64,000 nucleotides of DNA. It comes from Candidatus Poribacteria bacterium (GTDB lineage Bacteria > Poribacteria > WGA-4E > PCPOR2b). The stretch spans positions 219,673 to 283,672 of the forward strand of contig JAPPKS010000023.1 of the NCBI GenBank assembly GCA_028819845.1, in the 5' to 3' direction. Positions 35,352-53,693 of the stretch are shown in pieces. The position numbers were made by a program, and so were the translations under genes. The notes under the pieces were generated by a model, which did no database searches, was not told the origin of the DNA, and was given only the letters and a program-made list of their open reading frames with translations. Position 1 is the stretch's first letter, and each line of letters starts with the position of its first letter.

Positions 35352-38300
35352 TTAATTTCGAGATTCAGCGAGGGCAGTTTTAATGTCCTCCTGAAAGACC
35401 GATTGATCTGTGTAACCTGCGTAGTGCTTCACGATTGTTCCATTCCTATCAATTAGGAAGGTCGCGGGGAGGGAATCCAAGCCATCGAATTGCGCCGCCG
35501 CATCTTGGTCCGCTATGAGATTGGGATAGGTCACTCCAAACTTCGCAACGAATGACTTCATGTCACCCTCCCCCTTTTCGTCCAATGAAATCCCCAATAC
35601 TACCAGTCCGTGAGCATTGTATTGTTCATGAAGCGCCTGAAACTGGGGAATCCCCCGCACGGACGGGGGACACCATGCTGCCCAGAAGTTTAAAAGGACG
35701 ACCTCACCACTGAAATCCGAAATCGAAATCTCTTCGCCGTTCAATTTGTTCAAGTCAATGGATGGTGCTGGCTTTCCTACAACAACACCAACCTGACTTG
35801 AGCGAGACGCTGACTCGTAAAGTTCCCATAGTCCCCTAAGTGCCGCTTCTTGTTCCGTCGGCGTAGTGGCGTGAAGGGCATCTGTGCGGAGCATTGATTC
35901 AACATCGGCATCAATCTCTCCTAGCCGCTCGTAATGGTTAGCTAGTAACATGACCAACCCGTGCCGAACTTTCGGAGTCGCCTCCGATTGAATCAACTCC
36001 TTCACCTTTCCCGGTTGTCCATTGAAAAGGTACGCTTGTCCCAATATCGTCCTACTGTTCGGGCTAGGTTCCAGTTGTAACGCAAGTTCTGCCAATTCAA
36101 GCACCTTTTTAGGCAGCACCCGTTTTGTGAGCAGCTCGGATACAAGCTGGAAATACCCCCAACCGCGCCCCCGCCGATTGAGTTCTTTTTGGCGGAGATC
36201 AACCCATTGGGTGTATGCGGCTTCCGCCTTTTCAGGGTCGGCTACCTCTTTGTAAGCGTCGCCGAGTATCTCGTGGAAGGCAGGACTGTCCGCCAATTGT
36301 GCTTTAAGCGCCTCAAGCGTTGCGATTCCTTCCGCCCTGCGCCCATGAGTGCTGTAAAGATTCCACATTGATGGGAGTAGCGCCCCGCGTTCTACTTCAT
36401 CCTCGGAGGAGCGCACTGCGCTAAGCATTTCGGTGATGGCGGCGTCATGTTCCCCGCTGCGAGTATACAAATCAACTAGCGACCGTCGTCTCTGAACACG
36501 TTCAAGGGGGCTCTCCTCTAGTTCAATTAGCCGCTTGTAGAGAGGTATCGCCTTTTCGCGGTCGACACCCTCATACAGTACCGCCAACGGGGCCAAGATA
36601 ACCGCGCTATCGGGATTCAATCCGCGTGCGAGTTCGTAAGAGGCGATTGCTTCGCCAGGCATGTCGTTCCATTCGTAAGTTTGCGCCAAGGCGAAGTGAG
36701 TGTCCGGATCATCGGGGTTGTCGACAACTGCTTGTGTCCGCTCTGCAATCAAATCCTCATAAAGATTCCCGTCTCTGTATGCCCTGCGCATCGCGGCTTC
36801 TGCTGTTTTTCGTCCACTGTCATCTTGGGCAACGTTTGCCATCTGCTGATACGCATTGACGGCTTCCTCGTACCGCTTTGCACCGAGGTAGCTTTGGCCG
36901 AGCATGCCATACAAGCGCTCGCTTTCCCACGGACTGTACCAACTAATTGCGGCAATTGCGTCTTCGACGAGTTTGATTGCCGGGGTATACATCTCACCAT
37001 CAAGACAAATTGACCCTACTGTGGCGAGGAACCACATGTCCTGATTGCGATTGCTGCCCGATAGTGCAACCTCGCCTTGATTAAGTAGCTCTTTCGCCAT
37101 GTCTGGCTGGCCATCTTTATTGAAAGCGGCGGCCGCGTAGTAATAGCTGCGGACATTGCCAGGTTGTATTTTGCAGAGGGTTTGATACAATTCGGCAACC
37201 TGATTGTGGTCTTTGGTGTTCCGGTGGATTTCAGCGAGCATTTCAACGACGGCCGGGTTTTCCGGTTCCGTTTCCAACCTCTTTTCAAAGCGTGTATTCA
37301 ACTGCTCTAGTTTCCCTTGGCTTCTATAGGCGTTAATCAGGGTCTCACGAGCTTCATCTCCGGCGAAGTTGACTTTGAAACCGGATGAACTGTGGCTGAT
37401 TGACATACTCGATGAACCAGAACGAGACAGCATTTCGTAGAGTTCTACCGCAAGGTCATGCTCTCCAAGCTGAACGTAAATTTGCACTAATTCGTTGGAG
37501 AGCTGATTTCGCTCCCAGCTTTGGGAGGTCATGTCGAGCGCTTTCTTAAAAGCATCGACAGCTTCTTCTAATTTTCCATCCTGCTGATAACGTCGAGCGC
37601 GTTCTTGCTGCATCTCTAAGGTGAGAGTCCCCTCCTCCTCAGCCTTTTGAAGCATCTCCTCTAATTTTCCCTGACGCCGGTAGATGTCCAGCAACTGCCG
37701 TTCAATATCACGTCGTTCCCACTCTTGTCCCGTATATTGAATGGCATCATCGAACGCCTTTTCGGCGGAATCCAGGTCATTCTTCCGGAGATAAAGTTGC
37801 GCCAATTCTCGGTACGCCTGCCCATCGCCCGGTCCAAATTCAATCGCTTTATTGAAGGATTCGATGGCATCGTCAATGTGATTCTCTGCCGCATAGACTC
37901 GTGCAAGGCGGATGTAGTGGATACCGCTATCTACCTCGCCTTCAATGTATTTCTGGGCTAGGTCAAGCGCCTCGGGGAACCTGCCCGCTTCACGCAAGGA
38001 GTTGACAATGCCGTCTTGGTATTTTGTGTTTTCCGGGTCGGCCTCAAGCAAACTTTGCCAAGTGCCAATTGCCTTGTCGTGCTTATTTTGGCGGGTATAG
38101 ATGTTAGCAAGTTGCGCTCGAGATTCGAAATCTTCCGGCATTACTTGTGCGATTTGCTCGTAAATCTCCACCGCTTTGCTGAGTTCATTCTGCTGCATGT
38201 ATTGCTGTGCTAACATCCGCTGCATGCCGAGATTTGCCCCTGCCATCTCTTCCAACTTTTCAGGCAGCCGTGTCGTGGTCTGGAGTCCGCCCTTACGGGA

Positions 38301-41300
38301 TTTAACCTCAATCAAACGTTGCTGTGCTTGTTCTCTTGCCCATTTATCTGCCGACAAGTCGTTCACAATTTCCGTGAACGTCGCTTCCGCGTCATCCCAC
38401 ATCTCGTGTTGCATATATAGTGTGGCGATTTCCTGTTTCTCCCAGTACCCACCACTGCCGCCATACATCATCAAACGCATCATTCCCATCTTTCGGAATG
38501 CGCCCTTTGCCTGCTCTTTCTCGCCCTTCTGAGCGTAGACTGCACCGAGTTTTCGGTAAATGTCAGATAGCTGCCAGAATCGCTGCGGATCAAGTTTTTT
38601 AGCGGCGGCTTCAAGCATCCGGAGTTCACGGTTGCGGTCGCCCGCACCACGATAAGCGTCTGCTAAACCGCTCAGTCGTTGAGCGTTCACAGACACAACG
38701 TTATCGTCAATAAGTTGATTAACCAGCGGGTCTGACCCTTCAAGGTCATTCGCCGCAATTTTCATCGACGCAACCAGATAGAGCAGCGACGAGTCTCCCG
38801 GCTCCTCAGCGAGTTTAGCTTCATATTCCGCTAACAGTATCTCTATGTTACCTGATGACTTATAGAGTTCGGTCAGCTTGGATACAATCCCCACTTGTAT
38901 TTGGGGATTCTGCGAGATTGTTGCCGACTCCGTATCTAACTTTTCGCGTAAAAACTCGATTGCTTTCTCTCGTTCACCCGCAGCCGCATAGGCTGATGCT
39001 AGGTTTGCATAGGTGTTATGCCCATCAGGGAGAACCTCATGAATCTTTTCGTAGATTTGGACCGCAGCTTGCGCATTGTTATTCTCGATACACCGATCTG
39101 CCACGTTTTGGGCAAAATAGTTCACGTAAGTTCGCCCAACAGATGGCGCAATCATATCCTTAACGATGGAAACCAATTCATCGACTTTACCCGCTTGGAA
39201 GAAGGTTTCCATCAACTCCCAATAGTTGTAACCGAGCGCATTCGGATTTTGCTTTAGAAGGGCAACGTATTGAACTACTGCATCTGCCGCGTTACCGCTG
39301 CGCTGTAACATCTGGGCGTACCGCTGTCGGGTCATGCTGTCTTTTGGACGGAGGGCGAGCGCCGCATCGAATGCCGCCGAGGCTTTCTTGACCTGGTTTG
39401 TGCTTTCGTAATACGATGCCAACCGCACTTGTGCTTGGAACGAATTCGGGTTCTTTTCAGTGGCTTCGACCAACTGAGGTTCGCGTTCACGTACGGTTCT
39501 GGATCGACTCACTAGATGCGCAGCCTGCTGGAAACCCCACGAGTGCAGGGTCTGGCCATAGCGGTCGCGTTGACTTGCGAACCGCAATGCGCGTTCAGCT
39601 ATGAGCGTAGCATCCTGTCCCCGGCCGAGGTCCTCCAAGTGCGAACTCAACTCCATCAAGAAATTTGGGTCGCGTTGCCCCATCGCCAATGTCACCACCT
39701 TCTTGGCGACAGCGATGGCGTATTGCGTTAAGCCCGCCTGCTGGAGAGTCTGTGAAAACTGATAAAGCTCGCGGACCCCAACCGGCGAATTCAATACTTT
39801 CGTCATCAACTCCCGAACCTTCACAGTGTTGCCGGTGTGAGCGGCAAGCTGTAGCGAGAGGTCATAATACTGTCTCCGATTTCGTGGGTCAAGCCCGGCA
39901 AGCTCGTCGAGTAATTCTAATGCAGTTGCATGCAATCCCGTCTGAATTGAGACAAATACCGTGTTAACCTTGAGCGTGAGATCACGAGGGAAATCGTTTT
40001 GTAATGCGGACAGAATTTCCTGTGCTTCGTCTCGTTTACCGCCCCACCAATAGCAGTAACTTAACGCTAAACCGGGAAAGATACGGTCCCTGCCTTCAGC
40101 GTCTTCCAACTTATCCTGGAGTGTTGTGGTCAACGCTTCCTGTTGATTTCTTGTCCAAAACTGGCTGAATACCTGTTGGAGATACTGCAAACGGGATTGA
40201 TCATAGTAAATTGTGGGCGATGGATAGTTGGATTGAATGGGCGTATGTCCGCCGTAGGAATGTGACGAGTATGCTAGTGTTGCAACCTTTCGGGGATTTG
40301 TGGAATTCGGTTTGGTCCTGTCAAAAAATGTCCAGTAGAGTTCAATACTTTTGTCGGTGTGCCCTTCGCGGACATATGCAGCTGCGAGAGACTGGTAGAT
40401 ACTCACATACCGCCACCATTGCTGCTGCGCGAATGAAGTCATCCCCGTTACAGTCGGGGAACCCGCCGGAGTCAACGGAATCTGTAGTTGGGCGAGAAGA
40501 CGTTCCGCCGCTTCAATTCTTCCCATTTGGGTGAGCATCGTGACAAGTGCCGAAACCGTGTTTAAATCCGTCACGTTTGCAGTTTCAAGATTGTCTACTA
40601 TTTCCGCGGCATCTGCCTGCCGGCCTTGATTGTAGAGCACCCCAACGTAACTTGCAGTGAACCAAAGCCGTGCTTCGGATGTCAATCCCACCATTTCTTC
40701 TAGACGTTGTTTGAACGTGTCAGGATCGAGGTTTTGCTGCATTGATTGAGTCAAACGCATCGCTTGGTACGCCAAATCATTGGGGGAGGCAGCAATCAGC
40801 CGTTCCGTGACTTCAGCGACTTTATCGGTGTTTTGGAGGATTGTGTAGAGTTGCGCTAATCTTTCGAGGGCATTTATGTCCTTAGGATTAGCCGCTGCCT
40901 CGGCTTCAAATTGCTGGGTGAGTTCACTCAGTTTACCGCGCTGCTGGGCAATTGTAGTCAGCTGCACGAAAGCGCCTGCTTGGGCTTCTTCAAAGCTGTT
41001 CGGCATCCACGGTGTCCCGCTTCCGCCGCCATACGGCTGTTGCTGTATCTGCCAAACGAGACGTTGAGCGAGGTTGAATCGGTTGATGTTGATACCGGGA
41101 GGCCCGTAAGTTGGTGCAGGCGGACTTGCTTTAATAGCCTGAGCGACATTTTTCGGTGGTTTCGGCATCTCTAGAATCCGCAAGAAATGCGGTCGCGCGA
41201 GGTCCAACTCGTTCATTTCAACCAAAGCCGCTCCGACCTGATAAACCGATTTTGCATCTTGCACCTTTTCGCCCGCTCGGTTGAGAGCCAATAGCGCTTC

Positions 41301-44012
41301 ATCAAGAAGACCGTGCCGAATTAACAACGCCGCCAGTTTGATTTCTGCTTCAAGCGTTTGATTTCGCGAGTGCAGCAGCTTGGTCCACGCCTGAATCGCC
41401 TCCTGTTCCCGACCCAGATCGAACAACAAGTCCCCTAAACGCTGCTGGTGGAATGGATCGGGTTCCACCTTGACCAACCGCTGCAGATAGGTCAGCGCAT
41501 CCTGCGTATCGCCTAGATTGCGGCTGATTTCGACCAGTTGCGCCAGAAGATTCGAATCATCGCGTTCCCGGTCTAAAGCCTGCGCCAATTGGAATCGCGC
41601 ACCCAGTAGGTCACCTTCAATCTGATAGAACTCAGCCAACGCCAAGACCGGGCCAATATCGGACGGATTCGCTTTTGACATCTGCTTCAACTTGTCTTCA
41701 AACTCATCGGCCCGCCCCAAGTCGTAGTATGCGTCGGATAGCGGTTTAACGAAGGTGAGCTTGTCGTCCACACTTTCCCCCAACTCCCAGCACCGCCAGT
41801 ATTGTTCGATTGCCTGACGAACATTCCCCGATAGTTTGTAAATTTCTGCAAGCTCCTCCCTGATGTCGGTGTCTTCTGGACGAAGGCGGATTGCCTGCTT
41901 GAGACTGTCGGAGGAGGTTTCATAGTTCCCAATCTGTTTTGCAATTTCCGCCAACATTTGATGTCCTTCTGGGTTGCGCGGACTGTGCGCGACCGTTTGC
42001 TTCGCCGCCGCTGTCGCCGCATCAAAATCCATCGCGTCCAAATGGGAACGCGCAATTTTCGCATAATGTTCCCGTGAGTTCGCGCTGTCAATCTGAACGA
42101 GGTGTTCAAAAATGGCGACCGCTTCGTGGCGCAGGCCTTGCTGGACATAGATGTCGGCAAGCCAACGGGTGATCTGCACATCATCTGGCTTGAGCTCTTT
42201 CGCCCGAATAAGAGTTTCAAGCGCATTGGTCAAGTTCCCCAATTTTAGATACATCTTGGCAAGTTGTTTCCGCTGGTCGAAAGATTCGGGTTCTGCTTCC
42301 AGTTCGTCAATTTTCCCCGCAAGCGTTCCCTGCTGCCGAAAGATTTCAATCCGTTGGTCTCCCATCTGCTCCGCAAAGAATTCGTTTGGTGCAAGTTTCG
42401 TCGCTTCAACATATTCAGTTAATGCCTCTTCGTAATCCTTGTTTTCCATCAATCGCCGCGCGAATGCCTCACGATATCGGTATTCTTCGGGCGCTAACTC
42501 CACGGCTTTTCGGCTCGCACTAATCGCGTCGGTTTGAAAGTCCTTCGCATCAAGCAACTGTGCAAGCCTATCATAATTCTCAGCCATTGCACGCTCTCCG
42601 TCAACCATCCGATTCCAAGTTGCCGCAGCCTTCTGGCGGGAACCCTGACGGAAGTAGAATTCGCCAAAATATTCGATGTAATCGAGATTGTCCGGCGCAA
42701 GCGAAATCGCCTTTTCATATGCCGCAATTGCATCGTCCAGCCAATCATGACCCGCGTAAATCTCTGCGAGAATAAGATGCGTCCCAGCGTTCTCAGGATC
42801 TCGGTCTATCATCCGCTGGTACGCACCCTTCGCCCGTACTTTGTCCTCAAGCTGCAGATACAACTCTCCAAGTTCCCGGTAAATGCCAAAATCGTCAGGC
42901 TGTTCTTCACTGAGGATTTCATACTCCGCCGCCGCATCTTCAAATCTTTCAGCGGTGCGAAATGCAGCGATTAGGTTTAGGCGTAATCCAGCGTCCGTCG
43001 GGGCGAGTTCCAATGCCTTTCGATATGAATCAATTCCGTCGTCAAGTTGTTGGTTCTCAATATACGCTGAAGCCAGTAGGCCGATGAGTTCTGGGGCATT
43101 CGGCGTCACGCTGAGTTTGTCTTGATAGTACGCGATTAATCCTTCCCAATCCCCGTCGGCAGCGTAGATGCCGATGATACGATGCTGAAGGTCTTTCCGC
43201 AGCCAATTGCCCTGTCCCGTCAATGCAAGCGCAGCGTCATAACGTTGGATGGCGCCAGCATAGTCCCCCTGCTCTTCCTGTATCTTCCCAATTTCCCGAC
43301 GACTCAGACACACGCGGTAAGGGTCATCGGATTTGAGCTGAATTATCGCTTCGTGTTGTTTAATGGCTTGGCCATAGAATTCTTGTTCGCGGAACAGGTC
43401 GGCGAGTTCGATGCGGGCGAAGATGTTCTCCGGTTCAAGTTCAGAGATTTTCCCCCACGCCAAAATCGCTTCGTCCACACGGTCTCTGCTGAAATAGGCG
43501 CGGCCAAGGGTTTTATAGAGTGCAGTCAGGTCATCAAGCGTAGCAGACTTGGTTTCAATTGCGTATTCAGCCGATTGCGTCAATGCGGCAATTGCCTTCT
43601 CGTATTGGCGCAGCGCGGCATACGTTTGTCCAAGCGCAAAGTGGGGATAGTAGTTTTTCGGGGCAAGTTCAACAGCGCGTTGATACGCTGATACGGCCTC
43701 ATTGTCCTTACCGAGCCGTTTGTAGATGTGTCCTAGAATCAACTGAAGGTTGGGGTTGTTCGGGTTGGCTAGTGCTGCTGTTTGATAATCGGCGGCCATG
43801 GCGTCCAAGCCGGCGCCTTCGAGGTAGAATTGGTACAAGCGGTCGAAGGTGCTTCCCGCTTTCGGCTTACGCTCAAGCATCTGCTTGTAGCGGGCAATGA
43901 CTTTGTCGCCGTTAGTCTCATCTTGGGCAATGGTGAGTGATGAGGGAAACAAGATGCAGCAGACGAGATACAATATGCAAGGGACACTACGGCAAAATCT
44001 TGGGACAAACAT
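35352..44012 (-). CDS. Giant secreted TPR protein with C-terminal thioredoxin-like domain
   Basis: At 2886 residues this is by far the longest gene in the window. A signal peptide (PCILYLVCCILFPSSLTIA) is followed by an almost unbroken array of tetratricopeptide repeats, room for several dozen (AVSAYQRAVELAPKNYYPH, KAIGTWQSLLEADPENTKYQ are typical). A thioredoxin-like domain of the TlpA/ResA type occupies about 2745-2886: SGEVVLLNFWAAWCPPSVRG, LGISLDEKGEGDMK, SLPATFLIDRNG. Its active site is WCPPS (Cys2781, Ser2784; codons TGT CCC CCG TCC), so the usual second Cys is missing. TPRs act as scaffolds and the gene is likely periplasmic or outer-membrane associated. AAGGAGG lies seven bases before the ATG. 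Confidence 0.9.
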   Translation of the reverse strand: MFVPRFCRSVPCILYLVCCILFPSSLTIAQDETNGDKVIARYKQMLERKPKAGSTFDRLYQFYLEGAGLDAMAADYQTAALANPNNPNLQLILGHIYKRLGKDNEAVSAYQRAVELAPKNYYPHFALGQTYAALRQYEKAIAALTQSAEYAIETKSATLDDLTALYKTLGRAYFSRDRVDEAILAWGKISELEPENIFARIELADLFREQEFYGQAIKQHEAIIQLKSDDPYRVCLSRREIGKIQEEQGDYAGAIQRYDAALALTGQGNWLRKDLQHRIIGIYAADGDWEGLIAYYQDKLSVTPNAPELIGLLASAYIENQQLDDGIDSYRKALELAPTDAGLRLNLIAAFRTAERFEDAAAEYEILSEEQPDDFGIYRELGELYLQLEDKVRAKGAYQRMIDRDPENAGTHLILAEIYAGHDWLDDAIAAYEKAISLAPDNLDYIEYFGEFYFRQGSRQKAAATWNRMVDGERAMAENYDRLAQLLDAKDFQTDAISASRKAVELAPEEYRYREAFARRLMENKDYEEALTEYVEATKLAPNEFFAEQMGDQRIEIFRQQGTLAGKIDELEAEPESFDQRKQLAKMYLKLGNLTNALETLIRAKELKPDDVQITRWLADIYVQQGLRHEAVAIFEHLVQIDSANSREHYAKIARSHLDAMDFDAATAAAKQTVAHSPRNPEGHQMLAEIAKQIGNYETSSDSLKQAIRLRPEDTDIREELAEIYKLSGNVRQAIEQYWRCWELGESVDDKLTFVKPLSDAYYDLGRADEFEDKLKQMSKANPSDIGPVLALAEFYQIEGDLLGARFQLAQALDRERDDSNLLAQLVEISRNLGDTQDALTYLQRLVKVEPDPFHQQRLGDLLFDLGREQEAIQAWTKLLHSRNQTLEAEIKLAALLIRHGLLDEALLALNRAGEKVQDAKSVYQVGAALVEMNELDLARPHFLRILEMPKPPKNVAQAIKASPPAPTYGPPGININRFNLAQRLVWQIQQQPYGGGSGTPWMPNSFEEAQAGAFVQLTTIAQQRGKLSELTQQFEAEAAANPKDINALERLAQLYTILQNTDKVAEVTERLIAASPNDLAYQAMRLTQSMQQNLDPDTFKQRLEEMVGLTSEARLWFTASYVGVLYNQGRQADAAEIVDNLETANVTDLNTVSALVTMLTQMGRIEAAERLLAQLQIPLTPAGSPTVTGMTSFAQQQWWRYVSIYQSLAAAYVREGHTDKSIELYWTFFDRTKPNSTNPRKVATLAYSSHSYGGHTPIQSNYPSPTIYYDQSRLQYLQQVFSQFWTRNQQEALTTTLQDKLEDAEGRDRIFPGLALSYCYWWGGKRDEAQEILSALQNDFPRDLTLKVNTVFVSIQTGLHATALELLDELAGLDPRNRRQYYDLSLQLAAHTGNTVKVRELMTKVLNSPVGVRELYQFSQTLQQAGLTQYAIAVAKKVVTLAMGQRDPNFLMELSSHLEDLGRGQDATLIAERALRFASQRDRYGQTLHSWGFQQAAHLVSRSRTVREREPQLVEATEKNPNSFQAQVRLASYYESTNQVKKASAAFDAALALRPKDSMTRQRYAQMLQRSGNAADAVVQYVALLKQNPNALGYNYWELMETFFQAGKVDELVSIVKDMIAPSVGRTYVNYFAQNVADRCIENNNAQAAVQIYEKIHEVLPDGHNTYANLASAYAAAGEREKAIEFLREKLDTESATISQNPQIQVGIVSKLTELYKSSGNIEILLAEYEAKLAEEPGDSSLLYLVASMKIAANDLEGSDPLVNQLIDDNVVSVNAQRLSGLADAYRGAGDRNRELRMLEAAAKKLDPQRFWQLSDIYRKLGAVYAQKGEKEQAKGAFRKMGMMRLMMYGGSGGYWEKQEIATLYMQHEMWDDAEATFTEIVNDLSADKWAREQAQQRLIEVKSRKGGLQTTTRLPEKLEEMAGANLGMQRMLAQQYMQQNELSKAVEIYEQIAQVMPEDFESRAQLANIYTRQNKHDKAIGTWQSLLEADPENTKYQDGIVNSLREAGRFPEALDLAQKYIEGEVDSGIHYIRLARVYAAENHIDDAIESFNKAIEFGPGDGQAYRELAQLYLRKNDLDSAEKAFDDAIQYTGQEWERRDIERQLLDIYRRQGKLEEMLQKAEEEGTLTLEMQQERARRYQQDGKLEEAVDAFKKALDMTSQSWERNQLSNELVQIYVQLGEHDLAVELYEMLSRSGSSSMSISHSSSGFKVNFAGDEARETLINAYRSQGKLEQLNTRFEKRLETEPENPAVVEMLAEIHRNTKDHNQVAELYQTLCKIQPGNVRSYYYAAAAFNKDGQPDMAKELLNQGEVALSGSNRNQDMWFLATVGSICLDGEMYTPAIKLVEDAIAAISWYSPWESERLYGMLGQSYLGAKRYEEAVNAYQQMANVAQDDSGRKTAEAAMRRAYRDGNLYEDLIAERTQAVVDNPDDPDTHFALAQTYEWNDMPGEAIASYELARGLNPDSAVILAPLAVLYEGVDREKAIPLYKRLIELEESPLERVQRRRSLVDLYTRSGEHDAAITEMLSAVRSSEDEVERGALLPSMWNLYSTHGRRAEGIATLEALKAQLADSPAFHEILGDAYKEVADPEKAEAAYTQWVDLRQKELNRRGRGWGYFQLVSELLTKRVLPKKVLELAELALQLEPSPNSRTILGQAYLFNGQPGKVKELIQSEATPKVRHGLVMLLANHYERLGEIDADVESMLRTDALHATTPTEQEAALRGLWELYESASRSSQVGVVVGKPAPSIDLNKLNGEEISISDFSGEVVLLNFWAAWCPPSVRGIPQFQALHEQYNAHGLVVLGISLDEKGEGDMKSFVAKFGVTYPNLIADQDAAAQFDGLDSLPATFLIDRNGTIVKHYAGYTDQSVFQEDIKTALAESRN

Positions 44013-48719: not shown

Positions 48720-49802
48720 TTATCGTTCTCTTTGCCCCGCTACAAATTCGTCCAACTGCTGAACCGCGAGTGAATCGTCGTCTATCGTGACTGGCGGATG
48801 CTTGGTCAACCATGCGGATGCGGCATTGAGTACGCCCGATGTCCCGCGATCAAGCGCTAGCTTCATGTATCGGATCATATCAACCATTACGCCGCCAAAG
48901 TTTGCGCTGTCTTCTACCTCCAATTTGGCTTCAAAGCGCAGCGGCGCATCTCCATAGTTGCTGGCATCAATATAGAAAAGCGCCGTTTTGCGGTCCCCCA
49001 TAAAATCAACGTAGGAAAACCCTGTCGAGATTTCTGAGTCCGAAGATACTAGTGTTTCAAGAGCTTCTTGCTTGGTCTTGTGCTTCGACTGTCCCCGGTT
49101 GACGAGGTTGTAAAAATCGGTATTGCCAGCGTAGTTTACCTGATAGGTACGATTGACGTGGATACCTCTCGCGCGCAGCAGTTGAAGCAATGCACGGTGG
49201 ATAGCTGTGCCGCCAAGCTGACTCTTCACATCGTCGCCTATTAACGGCACACCGTTTTCGGCAGCCGTCTTCTGGTAAGCCGGATCGCAGACGATGAGTT
49301 CTGGCATCCCATTGATAAATCCAATTTTAGCCTCTTTTATGGCGGCATCGGCGTAAAACCTCGCCGCTTGCGCCGAAGCGGTCGGCAGGAAGTTCAGCAA
49401 CATCTCTGCCCCACTGTCCTTCAAGATTTGCGCGACATCGGCGGCCGGTTGGTCGGCAACTTCTACAAAGTCAGACAGCGCAGCACTGATACCATCCATC
49501 GGCGGTCCCATATGGACTTCCACACCACAGTTTGGAACATCTACACCGGGATAGTGATAGGCGATATTCGCACCGGAAAAAATTGCTTGAGATAAGTCTT
49601 GTCCAACACGCCGGGCGTCAATATCAAAAGCCGCGACAGGCACAATGTCAGTGACCTTGTAGCCTCCAATATCAACATTCATGAGTCCCGGCGCATCTGC
49701 GCCGAATTTTCGATAATATGCCATGCCCTGGATTAGGGCACTGGTGCAGTTGCCGACACCGACAATCGCTACGCGTATCGGACTTTTCGTCTCCCATGCC
49801 AT
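48720..49802 (-). CDS. ino1: Myo-inositol-1-phosphate synthase
   Basis: This 360-residue NAD-dependent enzyme converts glucose-6-phosphate to 1L-myo-inositol-1-phosphate, the entry to inositol lipids and solutes. The Rossmann motif is GVGNCTSALIQG (from residue 15). Family lines include PDLNFLPTASAQAARFYADAA-like (residues about 145-160), GDDVKSQLGGTAIHRALLQL, YAGNTDFYNL and AWLTKHPPV. The short length and pattern match the actinobacterial/archaeal class rather than the eukaryotic one. GGAGAAACCC precedes the ATG. It follows the phosphopantothenate synthetase gene after 51 bases and belongs to the same operon. Confidence 0.93.
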   Translation of the reverse strand: MAWETKSPIRVAIVGVGNCTSALIQGMAYYRKFGADAPGLMNVDIGGYKVTDIVPVAAFDIDARRVGQDLSQAIFSGANIAYHYPGVDVPNCGVEVHMGPPMDGISAALSDFVEVADQPAADVAQILKDSGAEMLLNFLPTASAQAARFYADAAIKEAKIGFINGMPELIVCDPAYQKTAAENGVPLIGDDVKSQLGGTAIHRALLQLLRARGIHVNRTYQVNYAGNTDFYNLVNRGQSKHKTKQEALETLVSSDSEISTGFSYVDFMGDRKTALFYIDASNYGDAPLRFEAKLEVEDSANFGGVMVDMIRYMKLALDRGTSGVLNAASAWLTKHPPVTIDDDSLAVQQLDEFVAGQRER

Positions 49803-49853
49803 GGGTTTCTCCTTTAGAATCTTAATAAACCCTCAACAAACTGAGTTCAGTTA

Positions 49854-50588
49854 TTATGCTCTACGAATCCATTGCAGTGCAGTTTCTAAAACTTTTTCAT
49901 TGCTGTATTTAGAGACTATCCGTTGTAAGGTAAGCGGCGAAGCGTCCGCTAATTCACGAATCTCCCGAATCAGCAACGGCAAAGCTCTGACCACGTTGTC
50001 CACGATGGTGGCGCTCGATCTGCTTGCCGTTCGAGACATTGGGTTGAGGTCTACTGAAATGACATCTTTACCCATTTTCCGCAGTGCTTCACAACGATCG
50101 CCGTCTTCAAGCGGCACAAATACGACATCCGCCCTAAAAATGCCGTCTGTGTGGACGTACTTTCGGTTTGAATCGATAAACGAAAGCCGGATATCGGAAG
50201 AAGGTATCAACACCTGAACGGCGCCGCGATTCAACAAATATTCTTGTATCGTCTCTTCCCGCCCTTTTGAAGTGTGAAAGAGGTTCACTTCCAAAGGCGC
50301 CTTTAGCAACTTGCCTAATGCTATCAATTCATCAGGGACAAGCGCCGCAGCATTCCCATTTACGGAGACTACAGGGTACTCGGCCAGCAATAGCATGGCA
50401 GCGCTTGTATGAATAGCCTGTGCGGCGAATTGCTGTGTTGCTTCTCCGATGAGATAGTCGAACGCCTCCCCGCGGCCGTGCGCAATCAGACCGTGGATGG
50501 AGGTAATGCCGCTCTCCACACCGGCAGTAATATCATCTCGTAATTTCAGCGATTGATACCGTGGATGGCTTTCAGGAACATCGCTCAT
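49854..50588 (-). CDS. 4-phosphopantoate--beta-alanine ligase (archaeal-type phosphopantothenate synthetase)
   Basis: This 244-residue protein matches archaeal phosphopantothenate synthetase: PESHPRYQSLKLRDDI (residues 5-20), GLIAHGRGEAFDYLIGE (33-49), VVSVNGNAAALVPDELIAL, KAPLEVNLFH, DVVFVPLEDGDRCEALRKMG and ISVDLNPMSRTASRSS. In archaea the enzyme joins 4-phosphopantoate and beta-alanine with ATP to give 4'-phosphopantothenate, replacing bacterial PanC and CoaA. The start overlaps the stop of the pantoate kinase gene by four bases (ATGA). The pairing of the two enzymes in one operon strongly supports the assignment. Archaeal origin by gene transfer is likely but needs a phylogeny. Confidence 0.9.
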   Translation of the reverse strand: MSDVPESHPRYQSLKLRDDITAGVESGITSIHGLIAHGRGEAFDYLIGEATQQFAAQAIHTSAAMLLLAEYPVVSVNGNAAALVPDELIALGKLLKAPLEVNLFHTSKGREETIQEYLLNRGAVQVLIPSSDIRLSFIDSNRKYVHTDGIFRADVVFVPLEDGDRCEALRKMGKDVISVDLNPMSRTASRSSATIVDNVVRALPLLIREIRELADASPLTLQRIVSKYSNEKVLETALQWIRRA

Positions 50589-51418
50589 AACAACCTCGCC
50601 CGTTCCATAGAGATCGCCGTCTCTTTCGCACCTTCAAATGGTTGTGTGCTGAATACGGCGTTTCCCAGCATAATCATCGACGCAAACCCGTTCTCGCTTT
50701 CAATCTGATTGATAACACACCGGACATTTTTATCCCTTAACAGTCCGCTTTCGATAGCGAATGCCTTGGAAAATCTGATGCAAGTATTGAAGTCTACCGC
50801 TTCAGAATTAACGAGCGCTCCTAGATAATTCAACGCTTTATCAGCCGATTTGTTGATGCTGTCCGTTTGCTTGGAATCTGTGAGGACGTCTCTGGTCTGA
50901 ATGGGACCGAAATACTTATAGTAAATGGGTTGTTTTCGAACAGGCAGCCGTTCTGCCGAAAGCGGATGGCCTGCCTTTAATTTGACGAGGCAGCCGCCGT
51001 GATATTGCGCGCAGACATCGCCCAAACCAGTCAGATTTTCCACCTCAGCCACGTGAGCTATCATCGCAAGGCACCTCGAAGATTTGCCTAAGCTCAGCAA
51101 AGCATTAACTGCATACGCCACGGCTAACGCAGAAGCACCGCTCAATCCAAAACCGCACCCTAACGGCTGCGGCGAGGTGATATCGATGAGCATTGATTCG
51201 GGCGTTAATTTTTGAAGGGTTGACACCACTGTGGGGAAATGTATCTCGACGCCATTAAACAGAATACTCGTCTGGCTATGTGGCGATACCGTCACCACGA
51301 CACCTTCATTAATGGTAAACCCCATCCCCAGCGAGTGCATTTTGGCCGCGTCCTCATGCGGTACAACCCTGAAAACACATGAGATGTTGCTGGGTGCGAA
51401 CGCGCTGACCTGTTCCAT
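50585..51418 (-). CDS. Pantoate kinase (archaeal-type GHMP kinase)
   Basis: This 277-residue GHMP-superfamily kinase matches archaeal pantoate kinase. Residues 4-20 (VSAFAPSNISCVFRVVP) are the N-terminal substrate strand; the phosphate-binding motif is PLGCGFGLSGASALAV (about 85-100), the archaeal variant of PxGxGLGSSAA; NLTGLGDVCAQYHGGC is the conserved middle motif. In archaea the enzyme phosphorylates pantoate, the first step of the alternative coenzyme A route. The next gene encodes its partner enzyme. AAAGAGA lies ahead of the ATG and a near-consensus promoter lies about 140 bases upstream. Confidence 0.9.
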   Translation of the reverse strand: MEQVSAFAPSNISCVFRVVPHEDAAKMHSLGMGFTINEGVVVTVSPHSQTSILFNGVEIHFPTVVSTLQKLTPESMLIDITSPQPLGCGFGLSGASALAVAYAVNALLSLGKSSRCLAMIAHVAEVENLTGLGDVCAQYHGGCLVKLKAGHPLSAERLPVRKQPIYYKYFGPIQTRDVLTDSKQTDSINKSADKALNYLGALVNSEAVDFNTCIRFSKAFAIESGLLRDKNVRCVINQIESENGFASMIMLGNAVFSTQPFEGAKETAISMERARLL

Positions 51419-51557
51419 TCTCTTTATTGGCGTTTATTTGACTTTGGCGGGATAGCTTGGCGGCGGACGGAATGGGCATTAACGTTCCAACCAATAGACC
51501 ATTCGCTTCATGCCGCAAGTTGCGATGCCTAATGTTTATTGTATGTTCCAGAGACGA

Positions 51558-51586
51558 ATTATACAAGAGGGTACTAACTCGGTCAA
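51558..51586 (-). promoter_or_regulatory. Promoter of the pantoate kinase-phosphopantothenate synthetase-inositol operon
   Basis: On the minus strand TTGACC (51581-51586) and a perfect TATAAT (51558-51563) have a 17-base spacer. The leader would be about 130 bases. The rest of the 328-base gap to the next gene shows nothing recognisable. Confidence 0.65.
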
Positions 51587-51746: not shown

Positions 51747-53693
51747 CTAAAACATAAAGCGGTACATCGGGCGTCCTAGGATGACGCCGGCTAAACTCCA
51801 GAGCGCTCCGACAAAGAATTCACCCAGTACCAACCCGGTAAAAAACGGCACGCCTTTACGATAAGCGTGAATTCCGCCAATACGGACTAAAATCAGCTTC
51901 ATCAACCAACTCAGAAGGATTGAAACCCAATACCAATTCATGGTTTGGTAGCCAATCCCGATTGCGTAACCGGCGGGATGCAAGGGCCACCAGATAAACC
52001 ACCGGTGCAATCCGGTGAGCAGTCCGGTAAAAGCGAACGCTCCAATAGATGCCGCAATCTCTAGGGGCGCCGCATCTAGAGGGGTTGTCAACCATACGCG
52101 TAACTGACCCAGAAATGCCCCTCGAATCCAATGCTCGCCGTAAATCGCGGCGCCATAACGGTACCCCTGTGCATAGTATGCCCAAGCTGATGAGATGGTA
52201 CCGACCACAGCTACTAGCATGATTGCTGGAACTAACTTGCTCGGAGCGACGCTGCGCAATTCGGCCGCTTTGAATCCTTCGAGCATGACCGGCATCGGGT
52301 GGCAGCGGTATGATCGGTTGAAGCCGCGAAAAAACGTGAATAGTGTCAAGCTTTTTCCGCCGAATCTACGTGTTCCCAAAACGGAGACTAGAGCACCGCC
52401 GGGATGCCACAGGACATCATGCGTGGGCGGACCAAGTTCAGCGCGGACACGAGTAATCGCAATTGCAAGCGCAAAAAATAGACCAAAATATGCAAGGGCA
52501 TGGATAGGCGAAACCCCAGCGCTAAAACAGAATAACAAGACAAACAGTACGCCTAAGGTTAAGCCAATCGCCGCCTGCCTTACGATACGGACATGCTCAA
52601 TTTCTTCGCCGCGGCGCCGAAATGCCGCCTTTATTTGCTCATAAAGAAATTTTCGGCTTACCCATACAGCAAAAACGCCGAGAGCGAACCATGCACCGAA
52701 CAACTGCTCATGCGCAAAGGGAAAGCCCGGAAGGTGTCCGAGCCCTAGCATGGTTCCCCATACCAAAACTATCTTTCGAAACAGATAGAAAAACCAGATG
52801 GAGAACGACAGATTGAGCGGGATGAAAAAACTCAAGCCAACCACGAAGGGATAGACCGCAAGCGGCGTATAGCCAATAGCGTTTAAGGGTTTTTCTGTAA
52901 AGAGTTGACCCAAGTCAAATCCTACTTTTGAAGGATTGTGGCCTATCCCTCCGACGCTGGGTACAACCGGAAACAGAAAATGGAGGCCGTTGATTAGGTT
53001 CATACTGCCCGCCAAGATGAACCCTATCCAAAACAACCTGTTTCTGAACAACGCGGACCCATTCCGTTCGGTAAGCTGCATCGGAATCTGGATGATGGGA
53101 TACGTCAGTTTTTCTTGATAGACCCATTGCCGCTGCACAAGCACCGTCAAACAGAGCATCATCCACGTCAAAACGACAATTAAAGCAGACCACCAGAACA
53201 CTGGTCTAATCCAAAGCCACAGATGGCTCCAAACGTGCAGCGTCGATTCCCCTTGATAAAAAGGGACGAGTGCATCCCGATTTTTTACCGTCAGCCAATC
53301 AGGAATATGATGGTGGAATAACTCCGCCCACTCGTTTTCTGGCGTTGCAAACCAGATTGAATGGGGTATGAGAGGCCAGAGCAACTGGAGCATATCGTGC
53401 CCGGCGATGGAAGATGCTACCGCGAGAAGCAGATAGACAACTGTCAACTCGCCATCACTAAACTGCGCGCGGGGTGCAGCGACACGAATCAGATAGTTCC
53501 ATCCAATCAATAGCAGAAGGATGAAAACGGCGTTGAAATACAACGAAACGACGGTAGGAAAACTTTGGCCGCTGTCATAGCCGCCTGTTCCCCAGCTAAT
53601 CATCAACCAGTAGGAGTTGGGTACGGTGAGTATGAGGGCAATCAGCACCGCGCGGAAGGTAACACTTCTCGTTGATGAAGGAGATGTCATCAT
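51747..53693 (-). CDS. DUF6785/DUF6784-like polytopic membrane protein, copy 2
   Basis: This 648-residue protein with about 12-14 membrane segments is a paralogue of the one at 6423. Shared landmarks are ATPENEWAELFHHHIPDWL, EKLTYPIIQIPMQLTE, TRVRAELGPPTHDVLWHPG and FFTGLVLGEFFVGALWSLAG. The same His/Asp-rich lines occur at similar positions in both. It has no AtuA neighbour here; the flanking genes are the CoA operon (same strand, 328 bases downstream) and a broken gene upstream. It is probably a second permease with a different substrate. No clear promoter was seen upstream. Confidence 0.8.
   Translation of the reverse strand: MMTSPSSTRSVTFRAVLIALILTVPNSYWLMISWGTGGYDSGQSFPTVVSLYFNAVFILLLLIGWNYLIRVAAPRAQFSDGELTVVYLLLAVASSIAGHDMLQLLWPLIPHSIWFATPENEWAELFHHHIPDWLTVKNRDALVPFYQGESTLHVWSHLWLWIRPVFWWSALIVVLTWMMLCLTVLVQRQWVYQEKLTYPIIQIPMQLTERNGSALFRNRLFWIGFILAGSMNLINGLHFLFPVVPSVGGIGHNPSKVGFDLGQLFTEKPLNAIGYTPLAVYPFVVGLSFFIPLNLSFSIWFFYLFRKIVLVWGTMLGLGHLPGFPFAHEQLFGAWFALGVFAVWVSRKFLYEQIKAAFRRRGEEIEHVRIVRQAAIGLTLGVLFVLLFCFSAGVSPIHALAYFGLFFALAIAITRVRAELGPPTHDVLWHPGGALVSVLGTRRFGGKSLTLFTFFRGFNRSYRCHPMPVMLEGFKAAELRSVAPSKLVPAIMLVAVVGTISSAWAYYAQGYRYGAAIYGEHWIRGAFLGQLRVWLTTPLDAAPLEIAASIGAFAFTGLLTGLHRWFIWWPLHPAGYAIGIGYQTMNWYWVSILLSWLMKLILVRIGGIHAYRKGVPFFTGLVLGEFFVGALWSLAGVILGRPMYRFMF

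Follow-up and report, generated by a model that had tools for sequence, protein, structure and literature searches.

An archaeal-type pantoate kinase and phosphopantothenate synthetase pair as the sole detected route from pantoate to 4'-phosphopantothenate in an order of Poribacteria

Locus organization

The window (the whole 64-kb stretch of DNA analyzed) belongs to a Candidatus Poribacteria metagenome-assembled genome (MAG), hereafter G000, that is 96.6% complete in 35 contigs. Three consecutive minus-strand genes lie at the locus (Table 1), and the open reading frames of that strand confirmed both the gene coordinates and the four-base overlap between the first two genes proposed in an earlier sequence-only reading of this DNA. 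The third gene starts 51 bp past the PPS stop, and the gap contains an AAAGGAG ribosome site. The near-consensus promoter proposed in the same reading is present 140 bp ahead of PoK, although it is one of five promoter-like sites scoring at least 11/12 on the two strands of the window. A common transcript for PoK, PPS, and the third gene is plausible.

Table 1. Features of the PoK/PPS locus (positions in the window)
Feature	Position	Strand	Basis
PoK, predicted pantoate kinase, GHMP kinase superfamily, 277 aa	50585..51418	-	profile, PDB, and model matches
PPS, predicted phosphopantothenate synthetase (4-phosphopantoate--beta-alanine ligase), 244 aa	49854..50588	-	profile and PDB matches
PoK stop/PPS start overlap, 4 bp, ATGA	50585..50588	-	sequence
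Inositol-3-phosphate synthase homologue (MIPS-like), 360 aa, third gene of putative operon	48720..49802	-	TIGR03450, 1gr0
Sigma-70-like promoter, TTGACC-N17-TATAAT	51558..51586	-	11/12 consensus match

The neighbours of the pair are bacterial (HtpG, TonB, and DUF6785 genes) and similar in GC content. A DUF6785/DUF6784 gene lies upstream of PoK at 51747-53693, and genes of this kind also adjoin PPS in Poribacteria family f4 (L005, L006, L012, L015, and others), often at a distance of ~10-50 bp and sometimes on both sides; they possibly encode a transporter or merely represent an abundant family. Elsewhere in the window, a repeat-rich 2886-aa protein (35352-44012) showed, by eye, tandem TPRs and a thioredoxin-like C-terminus.

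Identification of the PoK and PPS genes

In profile searches, PPS matched PF02006 (E 3e-66; 223 bits, cut-off 26.4) and, over its full length, the NCBIfam model PRK13761 (329 bits, above the curated cut-off of 227), and its score against NF041123 (292.5 bits) was slightly below the cut-off of 300. It aligned end to end with the Thermococcus kodakarensis enzyme TkPPS (3wdk; E 1e-67) at ~51% identity, and the motifs HGRGEAxDYL, VNG, VPLEDGDR, DLNPxSR, and TIVDN were invariant in an alignment with 3wdk and 4mb0. These matches bear out the archaeal phosphopantothenate synthetase motifs recognized earlier and assign the gene to that archaeal family, with ligase activity predicted from homology.

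The two top-scoring NCBIfam models for PoK were both pantoate kinase models, namely NF040725 (147 bits, below the equivalog cut-off of 380) and NF041122 (79 bits, below the cut-off of 500), while other GHMP models, including homoserine and mevalonate kinase, all scored below 25 bits. NF040725, by its name, represents a methanogen subgroup, and we place PoK by its sequence in the wider pantoate kinase family, not in the subgroups described by these two models. The T. kodakarensis enzyme TkPoK (6jbc) was the sole strong PDB match by sequence (E 3e-16). It was also the best PDB match of the AlphaFold model of PoK (pLDDT 96.8), with an E-value of 1.2e-23 and a TM of 0.84 (TMq), followed by the next fold neighbour at E 1.6e-13. 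Seven TkPoK residues (Ser28, Ser104, His131, Glu134, Asp143, Arg155, and Thr186) were reportedly identified as needed for pantoate and ATP use by mutagenesis in T. kodakarensis; each of the seven numbers agrees with the stated residue type in the TkPoK sequence. Six of them are identical in the PoK of the window, the exception being Arg155, which is replaced by Lys146; this position is Lys in the clade to which this PoK belongs. The archaeal pantoate kinase motifs of the sequence-only reading thus found support in sequence models and fold alike, and the gene is predicted to encode a pantoate kinase of the archaeal family that would phosphorylate pantoate.

The third gene

The third gene showed full-length homology with the mycobacterial-type inositol-3-phosphate synthase (1gr0, E 5e-82; TIGR03450, 302.8 bits) and matched Inos-1-P_synth PF01658 with 82 bits (cut-off 27). 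It differs from this type in scoring below the TIGR03450 equivalog cut-off of 638 and in being unlinked to CoA genes in relatives. The surroundings of PoK/PPS in the relatives examined (Poribacteria families f1, f2, and f4, other bacteria, and archaea; ~5-8 kb where contigs allow) contained no inositol-phosphate-synthase homologue, and the third gene is therefore probably an incidental operon partner outside the conserved CoA unit. The suggestion that the gene set also feeds inositol metabolism was not supported. In G001, a genome of the same phylum without PoK/PPS, an inositol-phosphate-synthase homologue (L194:4334-5392) lies ~1 kb from CoaBC, probably by chance.

CoA biosynthesis genes of the genome

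Family searches of the G000 contigs, with positive controls for PanC and CoaX in the same phylum, found PanB (C8:148376-149125) and CoaBC (C35:394815) and found no PanC, CoaX, or CoaA. The CoaBC was 55-56% identical to those of PanC-type Poribacteria outside the order of G000 versus 34-41% to those of DPANN archaea. It is thus of the host-phylum type, and the downstream step was therefore not acquired along with the PoK/PPS pair. The origin of PanB is less clear than that of CoaBC. Stronger- and weaker-scoring PanB types occur in the phylum (L049-L054), and G000 carries the weaker one (279 bits versus ~328-362).

PanD was not found in G000 or in any PoK/PPS genome save on one contig of G059, described below. 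Apart from this suspect contig, it was absent across the whole order, even from genomes that keep PanC, and a link between PanD loss and the PoK/PPS swap was therefore rejected.

Distribution across Poribacteria

Of the 85 Poribacteria genomes surveyed, 64 carried PPS and 67 gave a strong PoK match. Their union comprised 68 genomes, all within the order of G000, and neither gene was found elsewhere in the phylum. PanC was detected in 14 of the 85 and CoaX in 13, with one or both in 15 (E ~1e-60 to 1e-114). The two sets overlapped in G059 only (Fisher p 2.6e-12, a value that ignores kinship, so that independent cases in other phyla weigh more). G059 has 6% contamination, and the contig that carries its PanC, next to PanB and PanD, looks foreign. 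Six single-contig genomes (G022, G046 = OY282386, G080, and G082-G084) carried the PoK/PPS pair without PanC, CoaX, or a CoaA over the cut-off. PanC and pantothenate kinase thus appear to have been lost, and PoK/PPS swapped in, across almost all of the order.

Five genomes of the order (G015, G016, and G023-G025) kept PanC and/or CoaX and lacked the pair, indicating that the swap or its reversal occurred inside the order. The PoK and PPS frames abut or overlap in families f1 and f2; in f4 they lie apart, and both are kept.

Occurrence and gene context in other bacteria and archaea

PPS was also sought in named genomes, with at least 541 matches, of which the best 80 were listed. The listed matches included Latescibacterota, Gammaproteobacteria, Gemmatimonadota, Verrucomicrobiota, Chloroflexota, Cloacimonadota, Gottesmanbacteria, a spirochaete, and others; one gammaproteobacterial genome among them is a single chromosome (OY282378). 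In the 17 PPS-bearing bacterial genomes from outside Poribacteria among the matches listed, PanC, CoaX, and CoaA over the cut-off were each found in none (0/17), and PoK scored well above background in 15. These 17 genomes show, separately from the Poribacteria, the same trade of PanC/PanK for PoK/PPS. A search of plasmids gave no PPS match.

Gene order in relatives of the pair was examined as well. In Woesearchaeota, panB-coaBC-PoK-PPS runs were identified by Pfam in L102 and L115, and by similarity, with other reading frames interspersed, in L107. Two Nanoarchaeota carry CoaBC-PoK fusions directly beside PPS (L103:3900-5918 and L105:3953-5992). A Gottesmanbacteria (CPR) MAG (L138:4774-6741) showed the gene order PoK-PanD-PPS, with a bacterial aspartate decarboxylase between the archaeal-type genes. 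These gene arrangements tie the PoK clade shared with Poribacteria to CoA synthesis.

Several further observations were made in these genomes. In a Gemmatimonadaceae MAG, PoK-PPS is immediately preceded by a gene for a ComA (phosphosulfolactate synthase) homologue (L118:3758-4465). A MAG titled Klebsiella pneumoniae (L123) contains an archaeal-type PPS, and this record is probably mislabelled or contaminated. The sample-series names jk18x1bz, SB06xx, and p16x are common to Poribacteria and other PoK/PPS bacteria (L092/L119; L091/L116 and L140; L094/L158), hinting at exchange within shared communities.

Phylogenetic analysis

Molecular phylogenetic analysis of joined PoK and PPS sequences, including archaeal and bacterial homologues, was run with and without long rows. 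The Poribacteria formed one group (support 96/89; 93/89 without long rows), and its sister group contained bacteria from several phyla (99/98). Together these bacteria were supported at 100/99 and joined with DPANN at 100/100. DPANN as one clade was rejected with long rows (p 0.002) but was monophyletic at 71/81 without them. A single clade of all bacterial rows was rejected (AU p 1e-48), indicating several entries into bacteria. The trees place the Poribacterial pair among bacteria of several phyla, in a clade that is allied with DPANN archaea and may be either nested within them or their sister.

Proposed pathway and alternative explanations

We propose that PoK/PPS is the sole detected route from pantoate to 4'-phosphopantothenate in these bacteria, that the pair has a DPANN-allied origin, and that it displaced PanC and pantothenate kinase; we assign this explanation as a whole a probability of roughly 90%. 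In this pathway, PanB would make ketopantoate, from which a reductase would yield pantoate. PoK would convert pantoate to 4-phosphopantoate, PPS would join 4-phosphopantoate and beta-alanine into 4'-phosphopantothenate, and the bacterial CoaBC would continue from there. Phosphorylation would precede condensation, as in the archaeal order, and free pantothenate would be bypassed. The pair would have entered bacteria from a DPANN-allied archaeal-type source and taken the place of PanC and pantothenate kinase in almost all of the Poribacteria order, as well as in several further phyla of bacteria. The explanation is based on homology, conserved residues, and fold, together with patterns of co-occurrence and mutual exclusion, gene context, and phylogeny, from which we infer enzyme activity, flux, and transfer direction.

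The sequence-only reading left open whether the CoA route was replaced or supplemented. The pair might be additional or vestigial, with a bacterial PanC and pantothenate kinase having escaped detection through MAG incompleteness or enzyme divergence. G000 is indeed a nearly complete MAG in many contigs, and the pantothenate kinase search covered CoaX and CoaA, so that a missed kinase could be of type II (PF03630). However, the PanC and CoaX searches succeed in 15 genomes of the phylum, and, with the exception of the contaminated G059, none of the 68 PoK/PPS genomes, the six single-contig ones included, has either gene; the same absence recurs in the 17 genomes of other phyla among the matches listed. 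An additional or vestigial role of the pair is therefore very improbable. The absence of PanC/CoaX from PoK/PPS genomes, together with the DPANN-allied clade and gene context, argues for replacement and a hybrid bacterial/archaeal route. Of what was suggested earlier, replacement stood, and the additional route and the inositol tie did not; the searches revealed neither a set of PanC plus CoaA/CoaX nor weak similarity of the two proteins to their archaeal counterparts.

A slightly smaller chance still attaches to the GHMP kinase beside PPS being another small-molecule kinase, such as a homoserine or mevalonate kinase, an option raised by its superfamily membership and by its failure to reach the cut-offs of the NCBIfam pantoate kinase models. 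Against it, the top pantoate kinase model is more than 120 bits ahead of the best other kinase model, the fold match to TkPoK leads the next one by ten orders of magnitude in E-value, members of the same clade occur as CoaBC fusions or within panB-coaBC operons, and PoK co-occurs with PPS even where the genes are far apart. Most of the genomes are MAGs, and archaeal contigs could have been binned into bacterial ones. The bacterial neighbours and like GC content in the window speak against such contamination, as do the presence of the pair in the single-contig Poribacteria and in the single-chromosome gammaproteobacterium and the separate clade formed by the Poribacterial sequences. Contamination was rejected for the order as a whole by the single-contig genomes and the clade structure, and we regard its chance as close to negligible.

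Comparison with known systems

The PoK/PPS gene pair is adjacent in many archaea, as in the window. The pathway of T. kodakarensis (6jbc/3wdk) and Methanospirillum hungatei uses the same two enzyme families, presumably in the same step order, and positions reportedly involved in catalysis and binding there are mostly kept in the Poribacterial pair. Unlike in that pathway, the Poribacterial host is a bacterium in which PanB and CoaBC are present, the latter clearly of host-phylum type, and its PoK belongs to a divergent DPANN-allied clade with Lys in place of Arg155. The bacterial PanC and pantothenate kinase (CoaA/CoaX) fill the same gap between pantoate and 4'-phosphopantothenate, but they are non-homologous to PoK/PPS and take phosphorylation and condensation in the opposite order. 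Among archaea, the pair is closest in sequence to the genes in the Woesearchaeota and Nanoarchaeota (DPANN) operons and CoaBC-PoK fusions, whereas the Poribacterial PoK/PPS is unlinked to panB or coaBC and the CoaBC of its host differs from the DPANN type.

Work on T. kodakarensis described PoK and PPS as unique to archaea, where they replace PanC/PanK (PMC6650551). Among the openly accessible papers that use the term pantoate kinase, none, judged by title and abstract opening, reports the enzyme in bacteria. The enzymes are of a known kind; what is new is that they form the only route detected in a bacterial order, that the resulting pathway would be a hybrid, and that the pair has spread repeatedly.

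Implications

With PoK/PPS as the only detected route in almost all of a bacterial order, and sporadically in further phyla, the archaea-only boundary of these enzymes no longer holds, and a pair of steps in an essential cofactor pathway would be exchangeable between domains as a unit. We see a somewhat better than even chance that a mobile, DPANN-allied two-gene module has repeatedly replaced near-universal bacterial CoA steps in many phyla and become nearly fixed in the Poribacteria order, with free pantothenate left unusable and drugs activated by pantothenate kinase ineffective. Such bacteria would be predicted to leave external pantothenate unused, to have lost CoA feedback at pantothenate kinase, and to be indifferent to pantothenamides. 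Metabolic reconstructions that score PanC and CoaA/CoaX would wrongly call them pantothenate or CoA auxotrophs.
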